The notes under the pieces were generated by a model, which saw only the letters and a program-made list of their open reading frames with translations, was not told where the DNA came from and made no database searches. Positions 33,666 to 36,736 of a stretch of DNA of 64,000 nt are shown here, piece by piece. Position 1 is the first letter of the stretch. Each line of letters opens with the position of its first letter. Made by a program: the position numbers and the translations under genes. Location: contig NZ_AP025523.1 in assembly GCF_027923555.1 (NCBI RefSeq), forward strand, positions 186,001 to 250,000, read 5' to 3'. The stretch comes from Vulcanimicrobium alpinum. GTDB taxonomy: Bacteria; Vulcanimicrobiota; Vulcanimicrobiia; Vulcanimicrobiales; Vulcanimicrobiaceae.

Positions 33666-34463
33666 TTGTTCGCGATCGATTTACACGACCGGATCAGTCT
33701 TGTGACGGGAGGAGCCCGCGGCATCGGACGCGCGTGCGGAGAAGCGCTGGCGCGTGCCGGTTCGCGCATCGCCGTCGTCGATCTCGACGAAGCGACCGCC
33801 GCGGCCGCCGCCGACGCGATTGCCGCCGCGTTTCACGTTGCGACGCGCGGTTACGCCTGCGACGTGCGCGACCCCGCTGCGGTGCGCCGCACGTTCGACG
33901 CCGTAGCATCGGACTTCGGTGCGCTCGATCACCTCGTGAACAACGCCGGGATCCAGTTCGTCTCGCCGATCGCGGAGTTTCCGGACGACAAGTACGATCT
34001 CGTCCGCGGCGTCGATCTCGACGGCGTCTTTCACGCGACCAAGGCCGCGTGGAAGCATCTGGTCGCGCGCGGTCGCGGACGCATCGTCAACATCGCGAGC
34101 GTCCACGGGCTCGTGGCATCGCCTTTCAAACCGGCGTACGTCGCCTCGAAGCACGGCGTCGTCGGGCTGACGAAGGCCGCGGCGCTCGAAGGCGCCGAGG
34201 CCGGGATCACCGTGAACGCGATCTGCCCCGGCGCGGTGATGACCGATCTGGTGCGCGGTCAAGCCGCCGATCTGGTCCGGTCGTACGGCGGCGGGATCAG
34301 CGAAGAGGAAGCGCTCGAGCGCGCGTTTCTGCAGGCGATGCCGACGAAGCGTTTCATCGACGTCGCGGAAGTCGGTGCGCTGTGCGCGTTCCTGTGCAGC
34401 GACGAAGCACGCTCGATCACGGGCGCTCCGATCGCGATCGACGGCGGCTGGTCGGCGCACTAG
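33666..34463 (+). CDS. short-chain dehydrogenase, probable 3-hydroxybutyrate dehydrogenase
   Basis: This 265-aa classical SDR has the NAD-binding TGGARGIGRACGEALARAG, the NNAGIQFVSPI motif and the active site S-x12-Y-x3-K as NIASVHGLVASPFKPAYVASKHGV. The NIASVHG and FKPAYVASKHG wording is that of D-3-hydroxybutyrate dehydrogenases, which reoxidise PHB-derived hydroxybutyrate to acetoacetate. The PHA synthase at 56912 makes this plausible. TTG at 33666 has AGGAGG upstream (33649-33656). It would be cytoplasmic and tetrameric. Confidence 0.82.
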   Translation: MFAIDLHDRISLVTGGARGIGRACGEALARAGSRIAVVDLDEATAAAAADAIAAAFHVATRGYACDVRDPAAVRRTFDAVASDFGALDHLVNNAGIQFVSPIAEFPDDKYDLVRGVDLDGVFHATKAAWKHLVARGRGRIVNIASVHGLVASPFKPAYVASKHGVVGLTKAAALEGAEAGITVNAICPGAVMTDLVRGQAADLVRSYGGGISEEEALERAFLQAMPTKRFIDVAEVGALCAFLCSDEARSITGAPIAIDGGWSAH

Positions 34464-34555
34464 CAATCCGCCTTAGACTAGACAACCTGGGCGACCGCAT
34501 GATACCCTCGGCGAACGCACGGCGCGCGACGCACGTGCAGAAAGGAGATGGCCAT

Positions 34556-34648
34556 ATGAATCAGTTCGTGCAGCAGATGATCCCCGTCGGAACGACCGGA
34601 CTCGTTTCGCGCACCTTCATTGCATCTCCGGAGGCAGCAACAGGCTGA
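34556..34648 (+). CDS. 30-codon small ORF with strong ribosome site
   Basis: The ORF (MNQFVQQMIPVGTTG... ending in EAATG) begins at an ATG with AAAGGAG 8 nt upstream, one of the best ribosome sites in the window. It lies in an otherwise non-coding stretch of 440 bp and is followed by an intrinsic terminator. I recognise no family. It could be a leader peptide for the structure behind it, or a stand-alone small protein with its own transcript. Confidence 0.5.
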   Translation: MNQFVQQMIPVGTTGLVSRTFIASPEAATG

Positions 34649-34700
34649 TCCGACGCTTCGTCGTCGCGTCGTTCTGATGAAGCCTCCGGTTCCCCGGAGG
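34628..34700 (+). promoter_or_regulatory. possible transcription attenuator (antiterminator overlapping terminator)
   Basis: CCGGAGGC (34628-34635, inside the end of the small ORF) is perfectly complementary to GCCTCCGG (34682-34689). The latter is also the left arm of the terminator at 34683-34700. Between them CGACGC and GCGTCG form a smaller hairpin. Pairing of the first two would prevent the terminator from forming. This is the layout of a leader-peptide attenuator; function is inferred from base pairing only. Confidence 0.4.
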
Positions 34701-34706
34701 TTTTTT
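34683..34706 (+). terminator. intrinsic terminator
   Basis: The perfect 7-bp stem CCTCCGG/CCGGAGG has a TTCC loop and is followed by six T residues. This is the clearest rho-independent terminator in the window. Confidence 0.88.
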
Positions 34707-34707
34707 C

Positions 34708-34905
34708 GTGTCACTCTCATTGCTCGTCCTCGCCGTCTTGGTCGAGGAACGGCGGCGTTCGTGCGCGCGTGACTACGCGTTCGCACGCCGTTTCCGCCTG
34801 CGCCGCCGCATAGCGATCGCGATCGGCGCGATCGCATACGCCGTGTCGGCGCTTGCCGTCGCAGTTGACGACGAACCCCGTTCGCAGGGTACGATCTCGG
34901 CATGA
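34708..34905 (+). CDS. doubtful small hydrophobic ORF
   Basis: This 65-codon frame starts with a GTG right after the terminator's T-run and ends in an ATGA overlap with the phosphodiesterase start. It has an N-terminal hydrophobic run and a second one near the end (IAIAIGAIAYAVSALAV) but no ribosome site and no family. If real, it could only be read when the terminator is passed. Confidence 0.25.
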   Translation: MSLSLLVLAVLVEERRRSCARDYAFARRFRLRRRIAIAIGAIAYAVSALAVAVDDEPRSQGTISA

Positions 34906-35414
34906 CCCGGATCGGCGTCGTCAGCGACACGCATATCCCGCGCTTCGGCCGCGCGCTCCCGCGCGCGCTCGAAGCCGGACTGCGTCGCGCGCGCGTCGAC
35001 CGCATCCTGCACTGCGGCGATCTCACCGATCTGCTCGCGGTCCCGCTGTTCGAAGCGATCGCGCCGTTCGACGCCGTCGCCGGCAACAACGACGGCGAGG
35101 CGATCCGCGAACGGTTCGGACGCCGCAAGATCGTGACCGTCGAGGACGTGCGCATCGGGATGATTCACGGCGACGGCAAACGAGGCACGACGCGCGAGCG
35201 CGCGGTGGACGCGTTCGCCGGCGGCGACGCCGACGTCGTGCTGTTCGGCCACAGCCATCGTCCGTACGTCGGGAACGCGGGCGCGATGCTGGTCGCGAAT
35301 CCCGGCTCGCCGACCGACAAACGACGCAATCCGCTCTATTCGTACGCGATTCTCACGGTTGACGGAAGCGCGGCGCGCGTCGCGCTGAAATTCTACGCCG
35401 GCAACGCCGCCTAA
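34902..35414 (+). CDS. YfcE/MJ0936-type metallophosphoesterase
   Basis: This 170-aa calcineurin-like phosphodiesterase has metal ligands in GVVSDTHIPRFG, LHCGDLTD, GNNDGEAIR, MIHGDGKR and FGHSHRPYV, ending with NPGSPTDKRR. Family members cleave small phosphodiesters in vitro; the natural substrate is unknown. An IS5-type element is inserted exactly at its TAA stop. The 4-bp duplication rebuilt the stop, so the protein is unchanged. Confidence 0.88.
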   Translation: MTRIGVVSDTHIPRFGRALPRALEAGLRRARVDRILHCGDLTDLLAVPLFEAIAPFDAVAGNNDGEAIRERFGRRKIVTVEDVRIGMIHGDGKRGTTRERAVDAFAGGDADVVLFGHSHRPYVGNAGAMLVANPGSPTDKRRNPLYSYAILTVDGSAARVALKFYAGNAA

Positions 35415-36684
35415 CAGGGTGCTGAAAAAGTCGCGTTTCCCTTCCTTGTCGGGTAAGCGTTTGATACAATGAGACATGCGAACGCGAGAGAAAGTGCAGC
35501 GCGGCATGTGGAGTTATGTTGCGGATGAGGATCGGATTCCGAAAGATCATCCATTACGCGCGATGCGAGCGTTGATCGACCCCGTTCTGCGCGATCTCTC
35601 GCCGCGTTTCAGCCAGCTATATGCGAGCAACGGTCGTGCCTCGATCCCGCCGGAATATCTGCTCAGAGCGCTGCTCTTGCAACTGCTTTACAGCGTTCGC
35701 AGCGAACGCATGCTGATCGAGCAGTTGCACTACAACATGCTTTTTCGATGGTTCGTAGGGCTCAATACGGACGATCCCGTTTGGCACGCGACCACGTTCA
35801 CCAAGAACCGTGAACGGCTAATGCAAGGTGATATCGCACGTGCGTTTTTCGACCGAGTGTTTGCCATCGCTCAGGCGCGCGAACTCGTATCGGATGAGCA
35901 TTTCACCGTGGATGGAACGCTGATTGAAGCCTGGGCCGGCCAAAAGAGTTTTCGACCCAAGGACGACTCAGGCGATGGTCGTCCGGGACCGGGAAGCAAT
36001 CCAACGGTCGATTTTCGCGACGAGCGCCGCAGCAATGAAACGCACGCGTCCCGGACCGATCCCGACGCGCGTTTGGTCAAGAAGGCACGAGGCCAAGCAT
36101 CGCACCTGGGTTATCACGACCACGTACTGATGGAGAATAGAAACGGGTTGGTCGCACAGGCGACGCTCACGATAGCCAGCGGTCGCGCCGAGCGAGAGGC
36201 AGCGCTCGCATTGGTAGATCGGTTGCGGAATCGCGGACGTATTACGCTGGGCGCAGACAAAGGGTACGACGTCGCGGACTTCATCGCGCAGTGTCGTGAA
36301 CGCGAAGTTACACCTCATGTGGCATGTACAAGCGACCCTCGACGGAGTAGCGCGATCGACGGGCGGACGACGCGGCACCCCGGGGTATGTTTGGAGTCAA
36401 CGAAAGCGCAAGCGTGTTGAAGAGATCTTCGGTTGGCTCAAAACGGTCGGAGCGCTCCGCAAGACGCGACATCGGGGCCGAGATCGCATAGACTGGATAT
36501 TCACCTTCGCCGCCGCGGCATTCAACTTGACGAGGATACGGAATCTGATTGGGGCTGCGGCGTGATGCGAGGTTGCAACACCCCAAAAATGCCCCGAACG
36601 AGAGACTTCCGCGATGGAAACCCTTGTCAGAACCGCTACGAGTGCTGAAATGGCTCGGCATCGGCCGGCCATTTCAGCACCCTG
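35415..36684 (+). mobile_element. IS5-superfamily insertion sequence with CTAA target duplication
   Basis: The perfect 13-bp terminal inverted repeats are CAGGGTGCTGAAA and TTTCAGCACCCTG. The element is flanked by CTAA at 35411-35414 and 36685-36688, the 4-bp target size and TA-centred preference of IS5-type elements. The 1270-bp element carries one transposase reading frame broken by a single-base shift. Confidence 0.88.
35476..36565 (+). pseudogene. IS5/IS1182-type transposase, one-base frameshift
   Basis: The first frame (35476-36420) gives the DUF772-type N-terminus (DEDRIPKDHPLRAMRALID, PPEYLLRALLLQLLYSVRSER), TVDGTLIEAWAG (first Asp), LGADKGYDV (second Asp) and SSAIDGRTTRHPG. Near 36380 the match moves to another frame (VWSQRKRKRVEEIFGWLKTVG, with the catalytic Glu, then TFAAAAFNLTRIRN), ending at 36565. 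One extra G in CCCCGGGG explains it. The element is inactive unless this is a sequencing error. Confidence 0.85.
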
Positions 36685-36736
36685 CTAAGCGAACGGTCGG
36701 CGAAACTTCCGCGGCTGGGCGACGTTATCGGTGCCC

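Follow-up and report, generated by a model that had tools for sequence, protein, structure and literature searches.

A probable leader-ORF transcription attenuator upstream of a small arginine-rich protein gene in Vulcanimicrobium alpinum and its relatives

A real leader-ORF attenuator of a known kind, kept through much of the bacterial family, lies upstream of a gene for a small arginine-rich protein in Vulcanimicrobium alpinum. At the level of sequence, a short open reading frame (ORF) with a ribosome site stands between a promoter and an intrinsic terminator, and an antiterminator that overlaps the 3′-end of this leader ORF excludes the terminator and has been kept by compensating changes. 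The arrangement is probably a ribosome-mediated transcription attenuator responding to whether the leader ORF is translated. The literature searched gave no description of this element and nothing on leader peptides in Eremiobacterota, and among the matches listed there were only other systems.

Organisation of the locus

The window analysed here, a stretch of 64,000 nucleotides, sits on the single 3,508,363-bp chromosome of V. alpinum. The gene order on the forward strand is an SDR dehydrogenase gene (33666–34463), close to 3-hydroxybutyrate dehydrogenases, followed by the leader region, a 65-aa ORF (34708–34905), a gene for a YfcE-type metallophosphoesterase (34902–35414) and an insertion sequence. 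The phosphodiesterase belongs to TIGR00040 (97.7 bits against a curated cut-off of 56.25), also matches Metallophos_2 (6.7e-34), and has a start that overlaps the small ORF by 4 nt. The insertion sequence (35408–36691) lies directly behind it and is bounded by 20-nt inverted repeats that are 90% complementary; its transposase, with DUF772 and DDE domains, is split into two overlapping frames (35476–36420 and 36296–36565).

The leader region begins with a putative extended −10 promoter, in which TAGACA (34479–34484) is separated by 18 nt from TACCCT (34503–34508), the latter preceded by TGA. A Shine-Dalgarno sequence, AAAGGAGAT (34541–34549), with similar sites in relatives, precedes a leader ORF of 30 codons (34556–34648) that starts with ATG, encodes MNQFVQQMIPVGTTGLVSRTFIASPEAATG and stops at UGA. 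The last leader codons contain segment 1, CCGGAGGC (34628–34635), which is complementary to segment 2, GCCTCCGG (34682–34689). Pairing of the two segments gives the antiterminator hairpin (34628–34689), whose inner pairs enclose the leader stop. Segment 2 is at the same time the left arm of an intrinsic terminator (34682–34706) of the form GCCTCCGG-TTCC-CCGGAGG-T6, in which seven G+C pairs form the stem, TTCC the loop and CCGGAGG (34694–34700) the right arm, with six T residues (34701–34706) behind it. The GGAGG of the right arm (34696–34700) doubles as the small ORF's Shine-Dalgarno sequence and lies 7 nt ahead of the GTG start codon.

The exact form CCTCCN{3,12}GGAGGTTTT occurs a single time in the 3.5-Mb genome and not once in the backwards control, and the leader region is more stable than dinucleotide shuffles (z −2.22 and −2.16). 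A simple terminator scan of the whole window listed no terminators, probably because A-U and G-U pairs extend the stem into the T tract. The minimum-energy fold of positions 34620–34712 in V. alpinum is the terminator, without the antiterminator, and the alternative pairing therefore rests on comparison with relatives.

Conservation of the alternative pairings

Relatives of the leader were located via synteny and RNA models; a search of 98 genomes with the 30-aa peptide gave the query itself as the sole convincing E-value match. A DNA search recovered a syntenic region with good scores in eight of ten relatives, and RNA model R1 added G005, bringing the count to 10 of 11 genus genomes, query included. 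The genome left without a match, G009, is 73% complete, and a terminator pattern screen of one weak R1 row (L053) found none. Nine aligned genus sequences have in common the promoter-like sequence, a purine-rich ribosome site, a leader of 30–34 codons, GGAGG in the last leader codons, CCTCC and GGAGG-T6. Their RNAalifold consensus, obtained unprompted, is the antiterminator with its inner pairs around the leader stop; 94.7% of cells are paired and three pairs are changed on both sides, which was reached by 10 of 500 shuffles.

Leader, small ORF and phosphodiesterase are also present in three genomes from two other genera (G038, G028 and G054), and both alternative pairings are retained in these as well as in the 10 of 11 genus genomes. 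When 149 phylum genomes were searched with RNA model R2, those 13 were found at E ≤ 5e-12, and the next match stood at 0.019. The GGAGG of segment 1 is invariant in all 13 sequences, and the terminator has 100% of cells paired. The pair beside GGAGG/CCTCC (position 18/71) is C-G in eight sequences, U-A in four and U-G in one, while the terminator partner of the same base is U in 13/13, so the change tracks the antiterminator and its leader segment. Five cells are changed on both sides across the 13 sequences, and both this count and the covariation score exceeded 500/500 shuffles; counted as pairs changed on both sides, there are two, a number equalled by 239/500 shuffles.

Taken alone, the antiterminator has a folding energy of −25.7 to −33.1 kcal/mol and the terminator hairpin one of −12.3 to −17.5 kcal/mol in these 13 sequences. 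Together with the upstream hairpins, the terminator reaches −21.2 to −34.3 kcal/mol, which is near the antiterminator and better than it in G005 and G006, and the closeness of the two folds means that folding order must decide between them. The whole-stretch minimum-energy fold holds the antiterminator in 11/13 sequences and lacks it in V. alpinum and G005. GGAGG-T6 is present in 13/13, at a distance of 7 nt from the start codon in 11/13 and of roughly 12 nt in the other two, G028 and G054.

The initial annotation had described a 30-codon ORF with a very good ribosome site, an ORF end able to pair with the left arm of the terminator, and a T tract ending at 34706, all of which agree with the coordinates given above; its proposal of a leader-peptide attenuator layout is strengthened by relatives that keep the alternative pairings with compensating changes.

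The regulated gene encodes a small arginine-rich protein

In G001, G003 and G005 the leader and the small ORF are present and the phosphodiesterase is not beside them. The small ORF of G003 (L027) has only 27 codons, with leader and switch intact, and may reflect either recent loss or an artefact of assembly. In five further family genomes, weak R2 matches are leaders too, each before a protein of 58–65 aa of similar make-up. These came from an inspection by eye of 12 of the 21 weak R2 rows, among which five were same-family leaders of the same kind, four were poly-Cys leaders of family f13, and three (L196, L199 and L203) gave nothing that could be seen by eye. The f13 leaders (L193, L194, L205 and L208), from larger genomes of the same phylum, combine a Cys codon run with a terminator, and in three of these four cases the leader is followed by a similar protein of 109–118 aa.

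A small-protein profile, built from 16 proteins chosen because each follows a leader, gave matches at E ≤ 0.05 in 72 of 117 class genomes; in 49 of these a single match fell below 1e-3. The 49 loci that were parsed are those of these 49 genomes, minus G070 and plus G023. A leader ORF and a terminator were found by script upstream of the small gene in 40/49 loci, in 24/33 without the 16 seeds, and in 23/32 unforeseen loci when G004, whose leader was already known, is excluded as well; the same script found leader and terminator in 29 of 1965 random windows. Inspection by eye recovered the layout in three of the nine script-missed loci (G018, G046 and G123). In G112, G047, G036 and G074 no leader was seen in this look by eye, which covered the missed loci save G042 and G124; chance probably accounts for the match in G036, and a fragment for G112.

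At phosphodiesterase loci of other genera, leader and terminator lay upstream in 0 of the 10 that could be placed, two of which had just 170 and 285 nt of upstream sequence, while the positive loci were found in 3/3; one further locus (L067), without a start, was uncounted. The phosphodiesterase was therefore dropped as the constant target. Because leader and small ORF occur together without it in three genomes and none of the ten other-genus loci has the leader and terminator, sequence comparison points to the small ORF at 34708–34905 as the regulated gene and the constant target, and to the phosphodiesterase as a gene joined to it in some lineages only. The initial annotation had placed the attenuator before a doubtful hydrophobic ORF and a phosphodiesterase gene. 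Both do lie downstream, but the small ORF belongs to a family of small arginine-rich proteins found widely in the bacterial family, and the phosphodiesterase is not a constant target.

None of 16 members of the small protein family matches any Pfam family at E ≤ 0.1, DUF1127 included, and NCBIfam gave two marginal matches only, in one member each. The V. alpinum protein is predicted as one long helix (pLDDT 81, pTM 0.38), so that it is probably helical, and a fold search with it returned no PDB match.

Pairing in other genera of the family

In the 40 loci with a parsed leader, pairing between the leader end and the terminator arm plus loop is stronger than for dinucleotide-shuffled leader ends (mean z −2.0). 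The duplex test gave p ≤ 0.05 in 25 loci, with p ≤ 0.01 in nine, and values above 0.05 in 15. The alignment for the other genera comprises 15 sequences from four genera (11 from one and four from three), with G051 left out. Here the pairing is between CCUUCG and CGAAGG, and at one of its pairs A-U has come in twice as a replacement; one such pair arose in 118/500 shuffles and two such cells in 3/500. In addition, the terminator loop pairs with another leader segment, GGGUCGA, three of the six pairs being changed on both sides (6/500 shuffles), with a covariation score above that of 500/500 shuffles. Run on these 15 sequences, RNAalifold chose the terminator and no antiterminator. The small-gene match begins 33–101 nt past the terminator in the other genera. 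A related small gene in G069 (L253), from family f3 of the same class, has a leader with a strong antiterminator signal (p 0.005), and in view of this case the system may be older than the bacterial family.

The promoter pattern TTGAC-N14-19-TGNTANNNT stands ahead of 38/40 parsed leaders; reversed upstream regions gave 0 and the shuffled expectation is 0.0. V. alpinum has the weaker TAGACA form only, and G038 is without a pattern match. The size class and place of the leader are kept, with 24–46 codons in the 40 loci, and its stop lies 20–38 nt ahead of the terminator where the script permitted 5–90. Involvement of UGA and release factor 2 was rejected, as the 40 leaders use UAG 17 times, UGA 12 times and UAA 11 times.

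The fold might instead be picked by a trans-acting ligand or protein and not by the ribosome, possibly via a hairpin inside the leader ORF (34591–34595 with 34602–34606). This hairpin covaries within the genus, where four of its five pairs are changed on both sides in nine sequences, but its register is not unique, one slid by 3 scoring nearly equally, and its signal is weak outside the genus, the advantage of the matching region over shuffles in the 40 leaders being slight (mean z −0.85). No Rfam 15 family matched at gathering score in the window, and the best match in 34440–34920 was far below it. The 40 parsed loci, moreover, all hold an open frame, a ribosome site and a stop near the switch, as the script required of them. 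A ligand or protein is thus judged an improbable arbiter of the fold.

The leader peptide and its codons

Across genera, leader peptides are 21.0% identical against 18.9% for shuffled sequences (165 pairs among 19 leaders of 16 genera, with same-genus pairs omitted; 21.2% against 19.2% when six such pairs are included). The three codon positions vary alike in seven genus members, with 13, 9 and 9 extra states and no third-position excess. Since the peptide is hardly conserved and its codon positions vary alike, it is unlikely to act via its own sequence, and what selection seems to retain is the fact of its translation. The initial annotation had named a conserved peptide with lost pairing as an outcome that would speak against an attenuator; what the comparison gave is the opposite, the pairing being kept and the peptide not.

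These results also bear on an alternative in which the leader ORF would be an ordinary gene for a small protein, equipped with a terminator of its own, with weak read-through into the downstream gene and an incidental pairing. Ribosome site, promoter and terminator do make up a complete unit, as such a gene would have. A peptide that is hardly conserved across genera and shows no codon-position bias is not what it predicts, however, and the leaders of two genus members (G003 and G004) end in a different frame with the GGAGG retained, while the pairing covaries. An ordinary gene is therefore very hard to credit, and of the explanations weighed here it is given the least weight.

An attenuator specific to one amino acid is another matter, in which scarcity of a charged tRNA, with Asn as the best candidate and Arg or Cys next, would stall the leader ribosome and switch the gene on. 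Before the last nine codons, Asn is enriched about 3-fold and Cys about 2.7-fold, and Asn is present there in 38/40 leaders; Glu, Asp, Tyr and Ala are depleted in the 40 leaders. An Arg codon was seen by eye 7–12 codons ahead of segment 1 in the 13 closest leaders. The Asn codons cluster beside the start, however (29/160 positions at codons 2–5), a place at which A-rich codons may be preferred on other grounds, and arginine was dropped as the signal, with a ratio of 0.91 and hence no overall enrichment. No run of codons for a single amino acid occurs in the 40 parsed leaders, and the examined loci have no amino-acid pathway, transport or tRNA-charging gene downstream. The lack of a regulatory codon run means that a nutrient-specific attenuator is not indicated, and one tuned to a single amino acid is regarded as unlikely.

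Such runs do occur in leaders of the same geometry elsewhere, which lends the amino-acid explanation some weight by analogy and at the same time shows what the present leaders lack at the corresponding place. Among the matches listed, five leaders, mostly from Microgenomates (L090, L097, L103, L109 and L120), have the same GGAGG/CCTCC/GGAGG-T arrangement with aromatic or branched-chain codon runs, and that of L120 precedes an acetolactate-synthase-like gene (named by eye). These are apparently classical attenuators in Patescibacteria; leader-peptide attenuation in that group was not found in the literature searched. A Chloroflexi leader (L073) that reads ...NAIAIEIRLGGPAT before a citramalate-synthase-like gene (also named by eye) is likely an isoleucine attenuator. 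The same geometry with classical codon runs, which a pattern search turned up in Microgenomates and one Chloroflexi genome, supports the attenuator reading of the layout.

Proposed switch and related systems

In the ribosome-mediated attenuator favoured here, ribosomes at the leader stop would cover the left arm of the antiterminator, so that the terminator forms and transcription stops. With leader translation slow, missing or halted at an early point, the antiterminator, the first of the two to be transcribed, would form and polymerase would read on, and this state would leave the ribosome site of the small gene free. In Vulcanimicrobium and the two other genera, the terminator hairpin would also hide the GGAGG of the small gene and, since this GGAGG is its Shine-Dalgarno sequence, one hairpin would block both transcription and translation. 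Given the lack of a codon run and a peptide that is free to change, the most likely signal is general translation status (stalled ribosomes, too few of them, or inhibitors) and not one amino acid. The small protein would then probably be switched on when protein synthesis falters.

The systems nearest in logic, as far as the portions of the reports consulted describe them, are the DUF1127 uORF of Sinorhizobium meliloti, vmlR and toiL, none of which is the same element. In S. meliloti, a uORF likewise precedes the gene of a small arginine-rich protein, its translation lowers expression of the DUF1127 gene, and in the authors' proposal it acts as a sensor of how efficient translation is and how available ribosomes are (PMC12218461). 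The consulted text reports that system without an intrinsic terminator, as probably Rho-dependent and with C-rich codons at the uORF start, whereas an intrinsic terminator and an antiterminator are found here, with a small protein that has no Pfam match at the threshold given above (PMC12218461). The vmlR leader of Bacillus subtilis, induced when translation is compromised, shares the uORF, the antiterminator, the intrinsic terminator and a hairpin hiding the ribosome site of the gene; as described there, it differs in having an anti-antiterminator, in dividing termination and masking between separate hairpins, where one would do both here, and in its target, an ABCF factor, which the present target is not (PMC9226507). 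In toiL-topAI of Escherichia coli, one uORF answers several translation stresses and the likeness extends to re-pairing of the target's ribosome site, but regulation is described as translational repression followed by Rho-dependent termination within the target gene (PMC12121999). Classical amino-acid attenuators, such as those of trp and ilvB in Actinobacteria, have a leader ORF, a terminator and an alternative RNA structure as here, and differ from the present leaders, which have neither a regulatory codon run nor an amino-acid gene downstream (PMC1262725).

Taken further, the leaders could form a family-wide sensor of translation status whose only constant output is a new arginine-rich helical protein, acting as a translation-stress effector, with one hairpin locking transcription and translation in three genera; this is offered tentatively, as possible rather than probable. 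If this is true, the Sinorhizobium DUF1127 system would have an independent counterpart here. The attenuator itself, from a phylum of which few members are in culture, is a regulatory RNA that persists across a bacterial family as its peptide changes freely, and it is now tied to a small protein family without annotation. As V. alpinum is cultivated, both the signal and the role of the protein are directly testable.
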